A stretch of 64,000 nt of DNA from Peptoniphilus lacydonensis. GTDB lineage: Bacteria > Bacillota > Clostridia > Tissierellales > Peptoniphilaceae. The position numbers and the translations under genes are program-made. Shown in pieces: positions 23,282 to 32,164 of this stretch. The notes beneath the pieces were generated by a model, which was not told the origin of the DNA, made no database searches, and was given only the letters and a program-made list of their open reading frames with translations. The first letter of the stretch is position 1. Every line of letters begins with the position of its first letter. The stretch lies in contig NZ_FNWF01000003.1 of assembly GCF_900106515.1 (NCBI RefSeq), positions 434,001 through 498,000 of the forward strand. Direction: 5' to 3'.

Positions 23282-23376
23282 TTTTATTTTTTAATAAATT
23301 TATAAATAAAATCTTACCTTTATTTATAGATTTATTTGTTTTATGATAGAATCAACTTGTGTTTAAGGAGATTTTT

Positions 23377-24429
23377 ATGAAAATTGAAGTAAAAGAAAAT
23401 AATTATACTATTGATATTGATTATAAAAGTGATTTAAAATTAAAAAACTATTTAAATAAAAATAGAGATGCTAAATATTTAGTTATAACAGATAAAACTG
23501 TTTTTGATATCTACAGTGAAAGAATAAATTATATAATGGAAGACCTAAATTTTTTTATTTATAAATTTTCTCCTGGCGAAAATTCTAAATCTATGGAAAA
23601 CTTTATAAAGATAAATAAATTTTTGTCGGAAAATAATTTTAACAGAGGCGATATTATAATTGCTTTTGGTGGCGGTGTAGTTGGCGACATATCCGGTTTT
23701 GTTGCATCAACTTATCTTAGAGGAATAAATTTTATTTCCGTACCCACAACTCTTTTATCCATGATTGATTCTTCTGTTGGTGGCAAAAATGGAATTAATT
23801 TTTTAAATTTAAAAAATCAAATAGGAAGTTTTTATTTTCCACAGTATGTGCACATTGACTACAGCTTTCTAGAAACTTTAGATAATAAAAATATAAACAA
23901 TGGACTCGCAGAAATCTTTAAATATTCTGTATTAAAAGATAGAGAACTATTTGACTACTTAAAAGATTGTGGTTCTCTGGATTATGAAAAAATTATTTAT
24001 AGGTCATTAAATATAAAATTGGACTTTGTAAGAGATGACGAAAAGGACAAAGGTAAAAGACAAAGATTAAATTTAGGTCACACCATTGGTCATGGAATAG
24101 AATCACTTTCAAATTACAATTTAAATCATGGTGAAAGCATTGGAATAGGAACAATTTATATGGCAAGAGCAAGTTATAAAATGGGCCTTTCTGAAGACGA
24201 TTTTTCAAAAGAGTTGATTTCCACTTTTAAAAAATATGGTCTTCCAACTCAATACGAGTTTAATACAGATGAAATTTTAAAAATTTTAAAACACGACAAG
24301 AAGATAAATAAAAACTTAATAAATATTATTCTTCCTATAAAAATCGGTGAAGTAACAAATAAAAAAATTAGCTTTGATGAACTTAGAGAAATAATTGAAC
24401 TGGGAAAAGAAAATGAATCGAGTTATTGA
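23377..24429 (+). CDS. aroB: 3-dehydroquinate synthase
   Basis: A 350-residue NAD-dependent enzyme that cyclises DAHP to 3-dehydroquinate, second step of the shikimate pathway. Seen: the NAD-binding GGGVVGDISGF, VPTTLLSMIDSSVGGK, and the metal ligands in GLAEIFKYSV and LNLGHTIGHGIE with later LNHGESIGIG. The ATG at 23377 has AAGGAG 6 bases upstream. It is the first gene of an eight-gene aro/pab operon and overlaps aroA by 17 bp. Confidence 0.95.
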   Translation: MKIEVKENNYTIDIDYKSDLKLKNYLNKNRDAKYLVITDKTVFDIYSERINYIMEDLNFFIYKFSPGENSKSMENFIKINKFLSENNFNRGDIIIAFGGGVVGDISGFVASTYLRGINFISVPTTLLSMIDSSVGGKNGINFLNLKNQIGSFYFPQYVHIDYSFLETLDNKNINNGLAEIFKYSVLKDRELFDYLKDCGSLDYEKIIYRSLNIKLDFVRDDEKDKGKRQRLNLGHTIGHGIESLSNYNLNHGESIGIGTIYMARASYKMGLSEDDFSKELISTFKKYGLPTQYEFNTDEILKILKHDKKINKNLINIILPIKIGEVTNKKISFDELREIIELGKENESSY

Positions 24430-25648
24430 AAATAAAAAATTAAGTGGAGAAATCCAAGCTATAACATCTAAATCCTATGCCCACAGAGCCCTCTTTTGTG
24501 CAGCACTTGCAGAAGGTGAATCTATAATTGAAATAGAAGATATTTCCAAAGATATTGAATCTTCTATAAATTCTATAAGGGCATTGGGTGTAGAAATAAT
24601 TAAAAAAGACAATAAATTTCATATAAAACCTCCAAAATCTTTTAAGAAAAATGTGACAATAGACGTTTATGAAAGTGGAACTACTTTACGACTTCTACTC
24701 CCAATAATTGCAATTCTTGGAATAAGTGCAAAAATAATTAGACATGGTACTTTAATAAATAGAACTAACTCTGTTTATTTCAATTTATTTTCAAAACATG
24801 GTGTAAATATTTATGAAAAAAATGAGTGTATTTTCTTAGAAGGAAAACTATTAAATTATAATTTTGAACTCCCTGGAAATATTAGTTCACAATTTATCTC
24901 TGGTCTTTTAATTGCATCAGGCTATTCTTCTAAAGATTTTAATATTAGAATTACTACTGAAATAGAATCAAAACCCTACATCTGTATGACTATTGATGTG
25001 ATGAAAAAATTTGGTGCAAATGTTATTGAAAAAAATAATTTATATATCTGTAAAAATAACTTTAAAGCAACAAATTATATTGTGGAAAGAGATTGGAGCA
25101 ATGCACTATTTTTCTTGGTAACTGGCATAGAAGTAAAAGGCTTAAACAAAAATTCCAAACAGGGTGACAAAAATGCTTTAAAATTTTTAAAATCCTTGGG
25201 CTACGAAAATATTTCTATGGGAAATTTTAAACTTTCAAAAATAAAAGATGCAAAAGAAAGAATTATTTTGGATGCAAAGGATATGCCCGATGTAGTGCCC
25301 ATTCTCTCTATAATATCTGCACTTTCCAACAAAAAAATAGAAGTAATAAATATAAAAAGATTAAAATTAAAGGAAAGTGACAGGATAAATAGTACAATTG
25401 AAATGCTAAATAATTTGGGAATAGCAGTTAATTTATTTGAAAATTCTTTTTCTTTTAATGGACTAGATAATTTTAAAAGCACTACAATCAATTCCTATAA
25501 TGATCACAGGATTGCTATGGCTGCGAGTATTGCAGCAACTTTTGCAGATGGTCCTATTACAATTATAAATAGCCAATGCGTTGAAAAATCTTATAAAAAC
25601 TTTTTTCATGATTTTGAATCTTTGGGAGGAATAACACATGTCATATAG
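24413..25648 (+). CDS. aroA: 3-phosphoshikimate 1-carboxyvinyltransferase (EPSP synthase)
   Basis: A 411-residue enzyme joining shikimate-3-phosphate and PEP. Visible motifs: KSYAHRALFCAALAEGE, ESGTTLRLLLP, LKLKESDR and YNDHRIAMA. The family motif near residue 90 reads ESGTTLR instead of the NSGTTxR/AGNAGTAMR of other classes, which suggests a divergent, probably class II-type synthase with altered phosphate loop. I start at the ATG at 24413 inside the aroB end; the ORF could begin 18 bases earlier, but that has no better ribosome binding site. It overlaps aroC by 11 bp. Confidence 0.93.
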   Translation: MNRVIENKKLSGEIQAITSKSYAHRALFCAALAEGESIIEIEDISKDIESSINSIRALGVEIIKKDNKFHIKPPKSFKKNVTIDVYESGTTLRLLLPIIAILGISAKIIRHGTLINRTNSVYFNLFSKHGVNIYEKNECIFLEGKLLNYNFELPGNISSQFISGLLIASGYSSKDFNIRITTEIESKPYICMTIDVMKKFGANVIEKNNLYICKNNFKATNYIVERDWSNALFFLVTGIEVKGLNKNSKQGDKNALKFLKSLGYENISMGNFKLSKIKDAKERIILDAKDMPDVVPILSIISALSNKKIEVINIKRLKLKESDRINSTIEMLNNLGIAVNLFENSFSFNGLDNFKSTTINSYNDHRIAMAASIAATFADGPITIINSQCVEKSYKNFFHDFESLGGITHVI

Positions 25649-26732
25649 TTTTGGAAACAATTTTAAAATTACATTATTTGGTCAGTCCCATTCAAAAGAA
25701 ATTGGAATTGTCATTGATGGCGTAAAAACAGGTTATAAAATAAATTATGATTTAATAGAAAAAAATTTAGATAGAAGAAGACCTGGTAAAAATAAATTTT
25801 CAACTTCAAGAAAAGAATTAGATGAATTTAAAATTGTAAGCGGTGAAGTGGATGGCATAACTTGTGGTGCTCCTTTATCTATAATAATAAAAAATAAAGA
25901 TCAAAAAAGTGAAGACTATGAAAATTTAAAAGATCATCCTCGCCCATCTCACGCAGATTATCCTGCCTATGTTAAATACAATGGCTACAATGACATTAGA
26001 GGTGGTGGACAATTTTCTGGTAGAATGACTGCTCCAATAGTAATTGCCGGTTCCATTGCAGAAGATTTACTTTTGAAAAGAAATATTAAAATCATATCTA
26101 AAATTAAAAGTATAGGACAAGTTAATGATGTTGATTTAAACTATGAAGATTTAAATAATGATGAATTCTATAATTTAAAAAACTCTTATTTCCCTGTCTT
26201 TGACAAATTTTCAAAAGAAGAAATGCAAAAAGAAATTTTAGATGCAAAGGAAAAAAGTGATTCCATTGGTGGAATTATTGAAACTGCTATTTTAAATATG
26301 CCTATTGGAATTGGAGAACCATTTTTTGATTCTATGGAGTCAGTTATATCTCATGCTATCTTTTCTGTGCCAGGAGTTAAGGGCATCGAATTTGGAAGTG
26401 GATTTGAAGCAGCAAAAATGTTTGGAAGTTACCACAATGATTCCTACTATTATGATAATGGAAAAGTTAAAACGAAAACAAATAACCATGGAGGTATTAT
26501 TGGAGGTCTATCCACTTCGATGCCAATAATTTTTAGAACTGCAATAAAACCAACAAGCTCCATTGGAAAAGCTCAAGAAACTATTTCTATTAAAAATAAA
26601 AAAGTTGAAAATTTAAAAATAAATGGAAGACATGACCCATCAATTGTCCCAAGAGCAGTTGTGGCACTAGAAACGATGACTGCAATTGCAATTTTAGATC
26701 TAGTCATAGAAGGTGAGAAATGGAAAATTTAA
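25638..26732 (+). CDS. aroC: chorismate synthase
   Basis: A 364-residue FMN-dependent enzyme forming chorismate from EPSP. The N-terminus FGNNFKITLFGQSHSKEIG, the RRPGKNKFSTSRKE block, DIRGGGQFSGRMT and the C-terminal GRHDPSIVPRAV are family signatures. Reduced FMN is needed, and riboflavin genes lie 13 kb downstream. Starts inside aroA and ends inside the fusion gene that follows, so translation is coupled along the operon. Confidence 0.97.
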   Translation: MSYSFGNNFKITLFGQSHSKEIGIVIDGVKTGYKINYDLIEKNLDRRRPGKNKFSTSRKELDEFKIVSGEVDGITCGAPLSIIIKNKDQKSEDYENLKDHPRPSHADYPAYVKYNGYNDIRGGGQFSGRMTAPIVIAGSIAEDLLLKRNIKIISKIKSIGQVNDVDLNYEDLNNDEFYNLKNSYFPVFDKFSKEEMQKEILDAKEKSDSIGGIIETAILNMPIGIGEPFFDSMESVISHAIFSVPGVKGIEFGSGFEAAKMFGSYHNDSYYYDNGKVKTKTNNHGGIIGGLSTSMPIIFRTAIKPTSSIGKAQETISIKNKKVENLKINGRHDPSIVPRAVVALETMTAIAILDLVIEGEKWKI

Positions 26733-28231
26733 AGGAATCAAGAAAAACTTTGGATGAAATTGATTCAAAAATAATTTTACTTTTAGAAGAGCGAATGAAT
26801 GTTGCAAAAGACATTGGCATCTACAAATTAAATCACAATTTAAACACGACTGATAAAAACCGAGAAAAAGATATAATAGAAAATTTAGAAAGTAAAATTA
26901 ATCCAGAATTTAAAAATATTGTAATGCCAATTTATAAAGAAATCTTTAGTGAAAGCAAAAAAATTATCTCAAAAGTTAAAGAGGAAAATTTTCATTATGG
27001 ACTAATCGGCGAAAGCTTATCTCATAGCAAATCAAAAGAGATTCACGAGTCCTTTAGAAAATACAATTATAATTTAAAAAATATTGGAAAAAGTGAACTA
27101 AAAGATTTTTTTAAAAAAAGAAATTTCACAGGAATAAATGTTACAATCCCTTACAAGGAAACTTCCTTAAAATATTTAGATAAAATAGACCCCCTTGCAA
27201 AAGAAATTGGCGCAGTAAACACAATTATTAACAGAAATGGCAAATTAATTGGATACAACACAGATTATCTTGGATTTTCTTATAGCATTAAACACTTTGG
27301 CATAAGTCTTAAAAATAAAAAAGTTTTAATTTTAGGAAGTGGTGGTGCAAGCAAAATGGTCCAAAAATTTGTAGAAAATAATCTTGCGAAAAATGTCACT
27401 GTCATAAGCAGAAGTTCTAAGAATAATTATGAAAATTTAAATAAGTTTAAAGATTATAATGTAATAATAAATGCAACTCCTGTTGGAATGTATCCAGATA
27501 ACTTAGAATGCAAATTGGATTTAAATATTTTTAAAAGTTTAGAGAGCGTAGTAGATTTAATTTACAATCCTCTAAACACAAAATTAATTTTGGATGCAAA
27601 AAAGCTCGGTCTAAAAACAATGTCTGGACTATTAATGTTAGTAGCTCAAGCCTTTTACGCAGCAGAAATTTTCCTAAATGAAAAATTAGATGAAAATTTA
27701 ATAGAAGAAATGTATTCTAAAATAAAAAGAAATATGGAAAATATTATATTAATTGGCATGCCTTCAAGTGGCAAAACTACAATGGGAAGACTTCTTTCAA
27801 AAAAATTAAATAGAGAATTTTTTGACACAGATAATTTAATTGAAGAGGAAGAAAATTTATCTGTATCGGAAATATTTGAAAATAAAGGCGAAAAATACTT
27901 TAGAGATCTAGAAACAAAAATTTTAGAAGAAGTCAGCAAAAAAAATGGCATAGTAATTGCAACTGGGGGTGGAACTCCTATTAAAGAAGTAAATAGAGAT
28001 ATGATTTTGCAAAATTCCATAGTAATTTATTTGAATAGAAATATTGAAAAACTTGAAACCTTTGGCAGACCTCTATCTAAAAATTTAAAAACTCTAGAAA
28101 AAATGTATGACAAAAGAAATCCAATATACAGTGATCTCTCTGACATAAAAATAAATGTAATCGAAGACAAGGAAAAAACTTTGGAATTAATTTTGGAGGA
28201 ATTTGAAAAATATGAAAATTTTAGTAATTGA
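26720..28231 (+). CDS. trifunctional chorismate mutase / shikimate dehydrogenase / shikimate kinase
   Basis: One 503-residue chain with three enzyme domains. Residues 1-88 are an AroQ-class chorismate mutase (SRKTLDEIDSKIILLLEER, with Arg9, Arg25 and Lys36 in the usual spacing). Residues 92-335 are shikimate dehydrogenase: GLIGESLSHSKS, catalytic Lys146 in VTIPYKE, GYNTDYLGF with Asp182, and the NADP loop GSGGASK. Residues 340-503 are shikimate kinase: Walker A GMPSSGKT (346-353), FFDTDNLIE and ATGGGTP. No frameshift is present, and no separate aroE or aroK exists in the operon. The fusion puts steps 4 and 5 of the pathway and the exit to prephenate on one polypeptide. Overlaps aroC by 13 bp and aroQ by 20 bp. 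Confidence 0.92.
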   Translation: MENLKESRKTLDEIDSKIILLLEERMNVAKDIGIYKLNHNLNTTDKNREKDIIENLESKINPEFKNIVMPIYKEIFSESKKIISKVKEENFHYGLIGESLSHSKSKEIHESFRKYNYNLKNIGKSELKDFFKKRNFTGINVTIPYKETSLKYLDKIDPLAKEIGAVNTIINRNGKLIGYNTDYLGFSYSIKHFGISLKNKKVLILGSGGASKMVQKFVENNLAKNVTVISRSSKNNYENLNKFKDYNVIINATPVGMYPDNLECKLDLNIFKSLESVVDLIYNPLNTKLILDAKKLGLKTMSGLLMLVAQAFYAAEIFLNEKLDENLIEEMYSKIKRNMENIILIGMPSSGKTTMGRLLSKKLNREFFDTDNLIEEEENLSVSEIFENKGEKYFRDLETKILEEVSKKNGIVIATGGGTPIKEVNRDMILQNSIVIYLNRNIEKLETFGRPLSKNLKTLEKMYDKRNPIYSDLSDIKINVIEDKEKTLELILEEFEKYENFSN

Positions 28232-28652
28232 TGGCCCTAATATAAATATGTTGGGTATAAGAGAAGTCGACATCTATGGCAGTGAAAATTATGAAACCTT
28301 ACTAAAATCCTTTGACGAAATTTCAGAAATTGAAAATATTGACATTGAACATTTTCAATCAAATCATGAAGGTGAAATAGTTGATGTTATTCAAAAAAGT
28401 TACAAAAAAATTGATGGCATAGTTATAAATCCTGCGGCTTACACTCACACAAGTGTGGCAATACTTGACGCACTAAAAACCGTTGACATTCCAACTGTTG
28501 AAGTGCACATATCAAAAGTATCTGAAAGAGAAGATTTTAGGCAAATAAATTTTATAAGAAATTTTGCTATAAAATCTTTTGAAGGTTGCGGAATTTTAGG
28601 ATACAAAAAAGCAATAATATATCTAAAGAATTATTTAAAGGAGCAAAAATGA
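28212..28652 (+). CDS. aroQ: 3-dehydroquinate dehydratase, type II
   Basis: A 146-residue dodecameric-type dehydratase forming 3-dehydroshikimate. Motifs: MKILVIDGPNINMLGIRE (with the catalytic loop Arg), IVINPAAYTHTSVAILDAL and VEVHISKVSEREDFR. I use the ATG at 28212; a TTG at 28203 is in frame but only 3 bases from the GGAGG. Coupled to the fusion gene upstream and ending 4 bases inside pabAB. Confidence 0.95.
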   Translation: MKILVIDGPNINMLGIREVDIYGSENYETLLKSFDEISEIENIDIEHFQSNHEGEIVDVIQKSYKKIDGIVINPAAYTHTSVAILDALKTVDIPTVEVHISKVSEREDFRQINFIRNFAIKSFEGCGILGYKKAIIYLKNYLKEQK

Positions 28653-30670
28653 AATCACTTATAATAGATAATTACGATTCATACACTTATAATCTTTTTC
28701 AATTAATTGGAAAAGTCAGCGGGACAGAACCTATTGTAATTAAAAATGATGAAATGACTTATGACGAAATCTTAAATTTAGAATTTGACAATGTAATAAT
28801 ATCCCCTGGCCCTGGCAGTCCAGAAAAAGAAAAAGATTTTGGCGTGTGCAAAGAAATTATAGAAAATTTGGACAAACCAATTTTAGGTATTTGCTTAGGA
28901 CATCAAGGAATTTATTATTACAATGGTGGCAAAATTTTAAAAGCAGAAATACCAATGCATGGAAGACAAAGTGAAGTAAATCACAACGAAAAAAATTTAT
29001 TCAAGGGAATAAAAAATAATTTTAAGGTCACAAGATATCATTCACTAACTTGTGAAAACAAAGAACTTGAAAATATAAATATTGATGCAGTGACATCTGA
29101 TGGCGTAGTAATGGGTATTTCTCACAAAAATAAACCAATTTACGGAGTGCAATTTCACCCTGAATCCATAGCAAGTGAATGTGGAGAAAAATTAATAGAA
29201 AATTTTATAAATATTTGTAAAGATTTTTATAATGAAGATGAACTTTACTATGAAATAATCGATAAAATTTTTGATACAAAAGAGATTTACGAAAAGCTTT
29301 ATAATTACGACAAAAATACTCTTTGGCTCGACAGCAGCAAAGTTGAAGAAGGTCTATCAAGATTTTCTATTTTTGGAATTTGTGGTCCCAAAAGGGGTTA
29401 CAATCTAAAATACAATGTTAATGATAAAGTTGTAGAAAAAATTAATGAAAACTCTAAAAAAACAGAAAAATATAATGAGGATATTTTCACATTTTTAAAA
29501 GAAAATAGAAAAAAATGGAATTATGACAAGTCACTTCCCTTCGACTTTCAACTTGGGTATATTGGCTACTTGGGTTATGAACTAAAAAATGATACAGAAA
29601 AAGTTAAAAATAAACACTCTTATAAATATCCAGATGCCTATTTTAAATACTGCGACAGGGCTTTAGTCTACGATCACAAAGATGGCAAACTCTATATCCT
29701 TTCTTATAAAGACGACAAGAAATGGTTAAGTGAAGTCAAAAATATTTTAAATAAAAAATTAGAAACAGAAAAAGATAATAAAATAAAAAAAGAATTTCCA
29801 AAATTAAAATTTGTAAAAGACAAAGAAACCTATCTAAACGACATAAAAAAAATTAAAGAACTTATTTGCGAAGGAGAAACCTATGAAGTTTGCCTTACTA
29901 ATAGATTAGATATTTTAGACAATATTGATGGGAAAAAATATTATATGAATTTAAGAGAAAAAAGTCCTGGACAATACAGTGCCTTTCTTCCCTTAGATGA
30001 AATTAAAATTGCCTCATCTTCTATGGAAAGATTCTTAAAAGTAGATGAGAATAAAATTGTGACTACTAAACCAATTAAGGGTACAATTAAACGTGGGAAT
30101 TCAAAAGAAGAAGATCAAAAATTAATAAATGAACTTAGAAATGAAGAAAAGACAAAATCTGAAAATCTTATGATAGTGGATCTCCTCCGAAATGATTTGG
30201 GTAAATTCTGTGAAATTGGATCTGTCAATGTCCCAAAATTAATGGACGTAGAAACCTACAAAACTCTTCACCAATTAGTTACAACAGTTTCTGGAAAAAT
30301 AAAAGAAAATGTTGATGTAATTGATGTCCTAGAAAAAACTTTCCCAGGCGGTTCCATGACAGGTGCTCCCAAAAAAAGAACTCTCGAAATTATAGATGAT
30401 TTGGAAAATGTCCCTCGCGGAGTTTATTCTGGTACAATTGGATATATTTCAAATAATTCTACAATGGATTTTAATATTGTCATAAGAACTGCTATAATTG
30501 AAAAAGATATGACTACAATTGGAGTTGGAGGTGCAATCATACTCCTATCTGATGCTGAAGATGAATTTGACGAAATTGTTTTAAAAGCTAAGGGGGCGCT
30601 ATTGGCACTTCAGTCTTACTATAACAATTTTGACGAAATAGAAATTGAGGGAAGTCAAGAGGTAAAATGA
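28649..30670 (+). CDS. pabAB: aminodeoxychorismate synthase, fused PabA-PabB
   Basis: A 673-residue fusion making 4-amino-4-deoxychorismate from chorismate and glutamine. Residues 1-190 are a class I glutamine amidotransferase: GICLGHQ with Cys82 and VQFHPES. The rest is a chorismate-binding domain ending in GGSMTGAPKKRTLEII and IGVGGAIILLSDAEDE. The loop PIKGT marks PabB rather than TrpE, which has PIAGT; Lys in this loop is the covalent nucleophile. The ATG has AAGGAG 5 bases upstream. With pabC two genes later it makes p-aminobenzoate for folate. Confidence 0.94.
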   Translation: MKSLIIDNYDSYTYNLFQLIGKVSGTEPIVIKNDEMTYDEILNLEFDNVIISPGPGSPEKEKDFGVCKEIIENLDKPILGICLGHQGIYYYNGGKILKAEIPMHGRQSEVNHNEKNLFKGIKNNFKVTRYHSLTCENKELENINIDAVTSDGVVMGISHKNKPIYGVQFHPESIASECGEKLIENFINICKDFYNEDELYYEIIDKIFDTKEIYEKLYNYDKNTLWLDSSKVEEGLSRFSIFGICGPKRGYNLKYNVNDKVVEKINENSKKTEKYNEDIFTFLKENRKKWNYDKSLPFDFQLGYIGYLGYELKNDTEKVKNKHSYKYPDAYFKYCDRALVYDHKDGKLYILSYKDDKKWLSEVKNILNKKLETEKDNKIKKEFPKLKFVKDKETYLNDIKKIKELICEGETYEVCLTNRLDILDNIDGKKYYMNLREKSPGQYSAFLPLDEIKIASSSMERFLKVDENKIVTTKPIKGTIKRGNSKEEDQKLINELRNEEKTKSENLMIVDLLRNDLGKFCEIGSVNVPKLMDVETYKTLHQLVTTVSGKIKENVDVIDVLEKTFPGGSMTGAPKKRTLEIIDDLENVPRGVYSGTIGYISNNSTMDFNIVIRTAIIEKDMTTIGVGGAIILLSDAEDEFDEIVLKAKGALLALQSYYNNFDEIEIEGSQEVK

Positions 30671-31455
30671 AAAATAATTTAAGTAAAGGAAAAATTATAA
30701 AAGTTAGAGATTTAAATATTGGCGATGGGAGGCCTCTACTTATAGCTGGTCCTTGTTCCATAGAATCTCGCGATCATATAATAAAAGAAGCGAAATCACT
30801 AAAAAAAATGGGCGTAGATATTTTAAGAGGAGGTGCCTTTAAACCTAGAACAAGTCCCTACGACTTTCAAGGACTTGGCTTTAAAGGTGTAGAATACCTA
30901 AAAGAAGCATCAGAAAAGACAAGTCTTCCAATAGTTACAGAAGTTCTAAGCGAAGACCATGTTGATATGATGAAAGATTATGTAGATATTTTTCAAATAG
31001 GTTCTCGAAATATGTACAACTACTCTCTTTTAAAAAAAGTTGGAAAGACTAAAAAACCTGTTATATTAAAAAGAGGTTTTTCTGCAACTCTAAGAGAATG
31101 GGAAATGGCTGCAAAATATATTGAACTTGAGGGAAATGAAAATATAATTTTTTGTGAAAGAGGTATTAGAACTTTTGAAACAGAAACAAGAAATACTTTG
31201 GACCTTGCTGGAGCATATATATTAAAAGAAAAAACAAGTTATCCTGTGATTATTGACCCAAGCCATGGAACTGGTAAAAGAGAATTAATAGAGCCAATGG
31301 TTAAAGCAAGTCTTGCTCTTGATTTTGATGGAGTTATGATAGAAGTTCATCCAAACCCAGATGATTCAAAAAGTGATGCAGCTCAAACTATTGACTATGA
31401 AACTTACGAAAAAATTTCAAATTATGTGAGAGATTTTTATGAAAATAGAATTTGA
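30667..31455 (+). CDS. aroF: 3-deoxy-7-phosphoheptulonate (DAHP) synthase, type I-beta
   Basis: A 262-residue metal-dependent TIM barrel condensing PEP and erythrose-4-phosphate, the entry step of the pathway. Motifs: LLIAGPCSIESRDHIIKEA, GGAFKPRTSPYDFQGLG, VILKRGFSATLREW, IIFCERGIRTFE and DPSHGTGKRELIEPM. There is no N-terminal ACT-like or chorismate mutase regulatory domain, so feedback control by that route is not expected. The start overlaps the pabAB stop (ATGA). Confidence 0.95.
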   Translation: MKNNLSKGKIIKVRDLNIGDGRPLLIAGPCSIESRDHIIKEAKSLKKMGVDILRGGAFKPRTSPYDFQGLGFKGVEYLKEASEKTSLPIVTEVLSEDHVDMMKDYVDIFQIGSRNMYNYSLLKKVGKTKKPVILKRGFSATLREWEMAAKYIELEGNENIIFCERGIRTFETETRNTLDLAGAYILKEKTSYPVIIDPSHGTGKRELIEPMVKASLALDFDGVMIEVHPNPDDSKSDAAQTIDYETYEKISNYVRDFYENRI

Positions 31456-32164
31456 CGATGGATATTCTTTTGGAAAAGGTGCTTTCGAAACAATAAAAGT
31501 TGTAGATGGAAGACCTCTATTTTTAAAAGAACATATAGAAAGACTTGAAAAAAGTTTAAAATTTTTTGGAATAAATAGAAAAATAGAGTGCGATAAAATT
31601 TACGATTATCTATCTAAATCAGAGGAAAAAAATTTTGCACTTAAAATAATTGTTTCAGATGAAAATTTTATTTTGACATCAAGAGAAGACCATTACAAAA
31701 ATAACTATAAAAAATTTAAACTTAAAATATCTGATGCAAAAAGAAATAGCACCTCTAAAATAATTTACCACAAAAGCCTTTGCTACTATGAAAATATATT
31801 AGAGCACAAATTGGCAAATGAAAGTGGCTACGACTCTTCTTTATTTTTTAATGAAAAAAATGAAGTTGCAGAAACTTCTTTTGCAAATATATTTTTCGTA
31901 AAAGAAAATAAAATCTATACTCCACCTATTTCTTCAGGCATTTTAAAGGGAACAATGAGAGATTTTTTGTTAGAAACCTATGAAATAAAAGAAAAAGCTA
32001 TTAATTTTGGAGAACTATCAGACTTTGAAGAATGTTTTATATCAAACTCACTTATGGGAGTTAGAAATGTATCACTAATAAATTGTGAAAAAGAAAAAAT
32101 AAAATTTAGTGGAGAAGACAACACAAAATTAATTCAAGATAATTTAAAAAAATTTGGATTTTAA
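31439..32164 (+). CDS. pabC: 4-amino-4-deoxychorismate lyase (class IV aminotransferase fold)
   Basis: A 241-residue fold type IV PLP enzyme releasing pyruvate and p-aminobenzoate. Seen: SFGKGAFETIKVVDGRPLFL with the entry Arg/Glu block, the PLP lysine in YHKSLCYYEN, EVAETSFANIFFV, and PPISSGILKGTMRD. D-amino acid or branched-chain aminotransferases share this fold, but the position after pabAB supports PabC. Overlaps aroF by 17 bp and is the last gene of the operon. Confidence 0.85.
   Translation: MKIEFDDGYSFGKGAFETIKVVDGRPLFLKEHIERLEKSLKFFGINRKIECDKIYDYLSKSEEKNFALKIIVSDENFILTSREDHYKNNYKKFKLKISDAKRNSTSKIIYHKSLCYYENILEHKLANESGYDSSLFFNEKNEVAETSFANIFFVKENKIYTPPISSGILKGTMRDFLLETYEIKEKAINFGELSDFEECFISNSLMGVRNVSLINCEKEKIKFSGEDNTKLIQDNLKKFGF

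Follow-up and report, generated by a model that had tools for sequence, protein, structure and literature searches.

A fused chorismate mutase, shikimate dehydrogenase and shikimate kinase gene in Peptoniphilus lacydonensis and its relatives

A single gene of Peptoniphilus lacydonensis encodes a chorismate mutase (CM), a shikimate dehydrogenase (AroE) and a shikimate kinase (AroK) on one chain. The mutase domain is conserved in the clade to which this organism belongs, and throughout this clade it has lost one of its active-site residues. We give an even chance to the reading that the protein combines a working AroE-AroK pair with an attenuated mutase, which would still bind its ligand, in a pathway that has been turned to folate.

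The fusion gene and the gene row around it

The gene lies in the window, as the whole analysed stretch of 64,000 nucleotides is called here (contig NZ_FNWF01000003.1, positions 434,001 to 498,000), and occupies positions 26720..28231 of its forward strand. It is a single open frame of 503 amino acids with zero internal stops. The letters AGGTGAG stand before the ATG start, and the first 13 bases of the frame are shared with the end of aroC. The CM type II domain (26741..26965, +, residues 8-82) scores 61.2 bits with Pfam CM_2, whose cut-off is 27. It is followed directly by the codon for Ile83 (26966..26968, +), which an ungapped alignment matches to Gln88 of the E. coli enzyme. The shikimate dehydrogenase part (26996..27736, +, residues 93-339) contains the Pfam domains Shikimate_dh_N (residues 95-169) and Shikimate_DH (residues 193-248), both above their curated cut-offs; the aroE model TIGR00507 scores 179.6 bits on this part, below its cut-off of 200.2. 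The shikimate kinase domain (27764..28198, +, residues 349-493) matches Pfam SKI with 135.4 bits, above the curated cut-off. The residues K146, D182, G346, G351-K352, R395, R450 and R466, which we take to be catalytic or binding residues of AroE and AroK, are invariant in the alignment of ten sequences. An AlphaFold2 prediction made on a two-row alignment has a mean pLDDT of 38, too low for a usable model.

The initial annotation had described three domains on a single 503-residue chain without a frameshift. This is borne out by the open frame, the Pfam matches and the unbroken frame in ten of the 14 genomes of the GTDB genus. Among named organisms, the closest relative found was Peptoniphilus grossensis ph5 (locus L002), with 71% identity over the whole fusion protein, and the nine other unbroken fusions of the genus are 67-72% identical to the window protein. 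A different account would be that separate genes were fused by a sequencing or assembly error. In one genome of the genus (G119, 87% complete) the CM frame does stand apart from the AroE-AroK frame, but AroA and PabAB are broken in this genome too. The same unbroken frame in ten genus genomes excludes an error at the joints, and the probability left to this account is negligible.

The fusion gene is part of a row of genes on the forward strand in the order aroB, aroA, aroC, fusion, dehydroquinase II, pabAB, short DAHP synthase and pabC-like gene. The gene aroB (23359..24429) encodes 3-dehydroquinate synthase and matches TIGR01357 above its cut-off. The gene aroA (24395..25648) encodes EPSP synthase according to Pfam EPSP_synthase, and aroC (25638..26732) encodes chorismate synthase, with Pfam and NCBIfam matches above cut-off. 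Downstream of the fusion follow a type II 3-dehydroquinase (28203..28652, Pfam DHquinase_II) and a fused pabA-pabB gene (28586..30670), which contains the Pfam domains GATase and Chorismate_bind and matches the pabB model TIGR00553 above cut-off. It holds the sole Chorismate_bind match in the genome of the window (G000). The next gene encodes a short DAHP synthase without about 80 N-terminal residues (30667..31455), matched by NF006421 from profile position 79. The last one encodes a pabC-like class IV aminotransferase (31439..32164, Pfam Aminotran_4) that scores below the cut-offs of the pabC models. All fusion-bearing genomes of the genus share this row. In one of them (G117, L045) pabAB is interrupted by a stop and the fusion is unbroken. 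As judged from the encoded enzymes, the operon-like row covers the route from central metabolism to p-aminobenzoate, and its output would be p-aminobenzoate for folate. The AroE and AroK parts would catalyze two consecutive steps of this route, from 3-dehydroshikimate to shikimate and on to shikimate 3-phosphate.

Recurrence of the fusion and comparison with known enzymes

The aro domains were annotated in 62 sequences (the window, L002 and 60 loci), then in 40 more and then in another 14. An unbroken CM-AroE-AroK frame was found in 18 of the 130 genomes of the GTDB family, namely the ten of the genus and G043, G044, G071, G012, G022, G025, G036 and G037. In the remainder of the genus the frame is broken (G119), CM and AroK make up one gene (G114, G116) or no match was obtained (G115). 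The three-domain frame is broken or shortened in G010, G011 and G038, all of the group g3. The search at the level of the order (249 genomes, 119 of them beyond the family) gave no further unbroken three-domain frame among the matches listed, which are those with the best scores. The phylum was sampled with 398 genomes, from which 18 loci were taken for domain annotation; a three-domain frame was found in G319 and G277, both of one other family, and in G300 a CM frame and an AroE-AroK frame adjoin as separate frames. One of the carriers, G025, has a second aro row in addition to its three-domain fusion, and this row includes an AroE-AroK gene and a separate chorismate synthase gene (L056, L100).

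Several other fusions were seen among these loci. Four-domain AroC-CM-AroE-AroK chains of about 860 aa, one step past the fusion of the window, are encoded at L063:5844-8417 (G059) and L064:4607-7195 (G068). A chain of 560 aa joins AroE, AroK and dehydroquinase II (DHQ2) at L067:5312-6991 (G042). In L080, L081, L082 and L084 (G114, G116, G070 and G069) CM is fused straight to AroK, with no AroE between them and with Gln88 kept.

The genes of the fusion are found separately in the same order elsewhere. Separate genes are ordered aroB-aroA-aroC-CM-aroE-aroK-DHQ2 in G447 and G544, and aroB-aroA-aroC-CM-aroE-aroK in G185, a genome of the window's order. The fusion therefore follows a gene order that already existed, and adjacent operon genes for CM, AroE and AroK would have become one gene. 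The slot right before aroE-aroK is filled by pheA in several relatives and by separate small CM genes in G447, G544 and G185. The slot shared with pheA suggests that the fused CM may have been derived by truncation of pheA, but with the small CM genes in the same slot the change may equally have gone the other way.

In a tree built from 75 AroE-AroK rows by a quick search with SH-aLRT as the sole measure of support, the three-domain label needs at least six changes, at least four of them forced by well-supported branches; one of the label changes is the broken G119 frame, and the four-domain chains were labelled separately. This indicates that gains or losses of the three-domain form have recurred. 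The clade of G043, G044, G125 and the fusion-bearing members of the genus has a support of 99, and G125 groups with the genus with a support of 87.

A fusion of CM and AroE is already known. In the PDB, the AroE part is matched best by 3fbt (1.6e-45), which is entitled 'chorismate mutase and shikimate 5-dehydrogenase fusion protein', and CM and AroE likewise share one chain in the window protein. The title of 3fbt names no kinase, and its deposited chain of 282 aa matches the dehydrogenase part only. The pentafunctional fungal polypeptide AROM, which appears among the PDB matches, also has a dehydrogenase and a kinase among the shikimate steps on its one chain. We take its order to be AroB-AroA-AroK-AroD-AroE, with no CM, whereas the window chain is CM-AroE-AroK and aroB and aroA are separate genes. 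AroE-AroK fusions, in the same dehydrogenase-kinase order but with no CM in front, are found in many genomes of the family. Such fusions have also been reported in Methanomicrobiales, as have fusions of CM with prephenate dehydratase (PDT) (PMC11237513). The CM-PDT enzyme PheA carries its CM at the N terminus, as the fusion of the window does, but the latter has no PDT domain (PF00800).

The three-part order had been described as unfamiliar in the initial annotation. In line with this, a literature search covering titles and the beginnings of abstracts found no description of the CM-AroE-AroK order, and a search on shikimate, chorismate and prephenate in Peptoniphilus found, in the same parts of the records, nothing on the fusion gene. 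The order is, however, not unique, since it recurs in the 18 family genomes and the two genomes of the phylum sample.

The active site of the mutase domain

The CM alignment comprises 86 rows and includes every one of the 68 family genomes in which CM_2 matched. Its E. coli reference row is assumed to be correct, and the numbering of this row is consistent with PMC5526877 and PMC4281200. Seven residues (R11, R28, K39, D48, R51, E52 and S84 in the numbering of the E. coli enzyme) do not vary among the 11 sequences of the window's clade. Position 88 is Ile in six of these sequences, Thr in three and Ser in two. The 72 other non-degenerate rows have Gln at this position with a single exception, a Glu in the second CM of G540, a genome beyond the family. 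The window protein belongs to the CM_2 family and has seven of the eight E. coli active-site residues, with Ile83 in the place of Gln88. The description of the catalytic residues as intact in the initial annotation fits AroE and AroK, whose presumed catalytic or binding residues are invariant, and fails for CM.

The exchange of Gln88 for Ala cuts the activity of the E. coli CM 2x10^4-fold (PMC4281200). The loss of this residue need not abolish activity, however. The CM of M. tuberculosis has no equivalent of Gln88, and it reaches high activity only together with DAHP synthase (PMC7762937, PMC4281200). This AroQ-delta enzyme also has no equivalent of Ser84 and carries Arg for the conserved Lys, whereas the CM of the window keeps both Ser and Lys. 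The AroQ-delta type is characterized by the loss of both Ser84 and Gln88 (PMC4281200), and the CM of the window has lost the Gln and kept the Ser.

The three domains were compared for selection. The mean pairwise identity among the ten genus sequences is 0.70 for CM, 0.75 for AroE and 0.72 for AroK. The median dN/dS in the genus is 0.19 for CM (29 pairs), 0.13 for AroE (32 pairs) and 0.17 for AroK (40 pairs), and in the five three-domain proteins of g3 dN/dS is 0.11 for CM (6 pairs), 0.19 for AroE (10 pairs) and 0.19 for AroK (9 pairs); these values come from pairs with dS < 2 by simple counting and are rough, with dS near 1. Invariant columns make up 36 of the 81 CM columns in the ten genus sequences. 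All seven kept active-site residues are among these 36 columns, with a chance of about 0.0024 for seven out of seven. Judged from these comparisons, the CM of the clade is under constraint, perhaps slightly less so than in g3.

These values bear on the possibility that the CM domain no longer has a role and is decaying as a relic, heading for loss. Such a decay would fit the loss of Gln88 at a position that varies freely and the sister genome G125, which has no CM. It would also fit the AroE-AroK proteins of G057, G058 and G056 (L077, L078 and L079), whose N-terminal part resembles CM but retains few of the active-site residues. The higher dN/dS of CM than of AroE in the genus (0.19 vs 0.13) points in the same direction, but in g3 the value for CM is below that for AroE (0.11 vs 0.19). 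The seven active-site residues are nevertheless invariant across 11 sequences, and dN/dS is far under 1. Drift of the domain is not supported by the dN/dS values from this rough counting method; the CM domain is under purifying selection, so that we do not take it for a drifting relic and regard decay as very improbable. The CM-like stretches of G056, G057 and G058 were placed by alignment only. Pfam gave no CM_2 match in the chain of G057, and the search of the family gave none in G056 and G057; in G058 the CM_2 match is in a separate gene, with all eight active-site residues. G056 and G057 also have no U32-family protein.

The loss of Gln88 next to seven invariant residues and a low dN/dS could also mean that the domain is non-catalytic. 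Its role would then be to form dimers or to sense chorismate, and in this way to adjust the activity of the dehydrogenase, the kinase or the short DAHP synthase. In the window's clade, and also in G059 and G068, the DAHP synthase is without the 70-100 N-terminal residues found in most relatives examined, which favors a partner of this kind. The correlation is not strict, however, as the DAHP synthase is short in G125, which has no CM, and long in G071, which has a fused CM. The loss of Gln88 need not have ended the activity, and we consider a purely non-catalytic domain rather unlikely.

Chorismate and prephenate in the family and the proposed role of the fusion

The use of chorismate and prephenate was surveyed by searching the 130 family genomes, with control genomes matching in 14 of 14 cases for PDT, PDH_N, chorismate synthase and Chorismate_bind. 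CM_2 was found in 68 family genomes and an AroH-type CM above cut-off in 12. Chorismate synthase was found in 78, partial matches among them. PDT above cut-off was found in 21 genomes, Chorismate_bind in 30 and U32 in 126. PDH_N, indicative of prephenate dehydrogenase (PDH), is above cut-off in 24 genomes, of which 19 with more than 45 bits were kept; the count omits G043, G044, G049, G050 and G114, whose sole above-cut-off matches score 24.8 to 29.3 bits and of which the protein of G114 alone was inspected. Identity to the glycerol-3-phosphate dehydrogenase of G000 is 71% for the frame that gave the PDH_N match in G114 and 70% for the one in G116.

Seventy genomes have chorismate synthase together with a CM of either type. 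In 49 of them neither PDT nor PDH was found (45 with the weak PDH matches included), and 32 of these 49 are also without Chorismate_bind (28 on the same basis). In these 32 genomes no exit from the chorismate pathway besides prephenate was found among the PDT, PDH and Chorismate_bind families at the thresholds used, a search in which users such as MqnA, UbiC or PheC-type dehydratases would not show. An AroQ CM is present in 23 of the 32, and Gln88 is kept in all 23. Chorismate synthase without CM was found in eight genomes, all of which have Chorismate_bind. A CM (AroQ or AroH) without a match for chorismate synthase occurs in nine genomes (G058, G064, G067, G074, G091, G092, G093, G095 and G107).

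Neither PDT nor AroH nor a kept PDH was found in the ten genus genomes with an unbroken fusion; each of these genomes has one Chorismate_bind match, in pabAB. The genome of the window has no PDT (PF00800) and no PDH above cut-off. A weak PDH_N match in it was rejected, as the protein scores as a glycerol-3-phosphate dehydrogenase. The sister genome G125 has pab genes in its aro row and no CM. The view in the initial annotation that the fusion links steps before and after chorismate therefore applies to gene content only, as neither PDT nor a PDH above cut-off was found in the window's genome.

Prephenate may have another use. If the CM were effective, through compensation or a partner, its prephenate could serve a purpose other than Phe and Tyr, for instance the U32-family RNA hydroxylases (TrhP). 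The efficiency that the M. tuberculosis CM gains with DAHP synthase would allow for this, and the 32 genomes without PDT, PDH or Chorismate_bind above thresholds are consistent with it. Prephenate is required for TrhP-dependent tRNA hydroxylation in E. coli, and in B. subtilis the trhP genes adjoin the methyltransferase gene trmR (PMC6599085). In the window's genome, the genes for a Methyltransf_3-family protein, a TrhP-like U32 protein and a uridine kinase adjoin one another. The TrhP-like protein scores 378 bits, however, below the 534 cut-off of the model, and the presence of CM shows no association with that of U32 (Fisher p 0.30). A TrhP-like U32 protein stands beside the methyltransferase at L190 and in all 21 hand-picked loci, even in 11 genomes without CM, seven of which have no chorismate synthase. 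The pair in CM-less genomes and the missing association make the use by TrhP a ranked rival and not the answer, and an effective mutase in the fusion appears improbable.

A bolder reading is that the pathway in Peptoniphilaceae often ends at prephenate for a use other than Phe and Tyr. In the window's clade, where the operon includes a p-aminobenzoate exit, the fused CM would have changed from an enzyme to a chorismate-binding domain tuning AroE-AroK or the short DAHP synthase. This combined reading seems to us unlikely.

We thus return to the attenuated mutase beside a working AroE-AroK pair. The attenuation is proposed because Gln88 is lost, seven residues are kept and the genome shows no ordinary use of prephenate for Phe or Tyr. 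The N-terminal mutase domain probably has the dimer-forming AroQ fold, and it may have been kept because it still binds chorismate or yields a little prephenate. It would have been weakened because a fast mutase would drain chorismate from PabAB. In the simplest story, p-aminobenzoate becomes the purpose of the pathway and the mutase is then weakened, as in the genus, or dropped, as in G125. Two points count against attenuation: the loss of Gln88 is one event in one clade, and the M. tuberculosis CM is efficient with its partner though it is without the residue (PMC7762937). In addition, G054, G055, G083, G084, G085 and G106 have Chorismate_bind and CM, no PDT or kept PDH, and keep Gln88, which shows that the p-aminobenzoate exit alone does not bring about the loss of this residue. 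G043 and G044 keep Gln88 and have no Chorismate_bind match (G043 is 76% complete).

Along the operon order, the loci described here form a series that starts with separate genes and continues with fusions of two, three and four domains, and this series shows a possible route to multifunctional shikimate enzymes. The clade-wide loss of one catalytic residue with its neighbours fixed offers a ready test for a mutase turned sensor. The survey of the family also raises the question of the fate of prephenate, as 49 of the 70 genomes with CM and chorismate synthase are without a strong PDT or PDH match.
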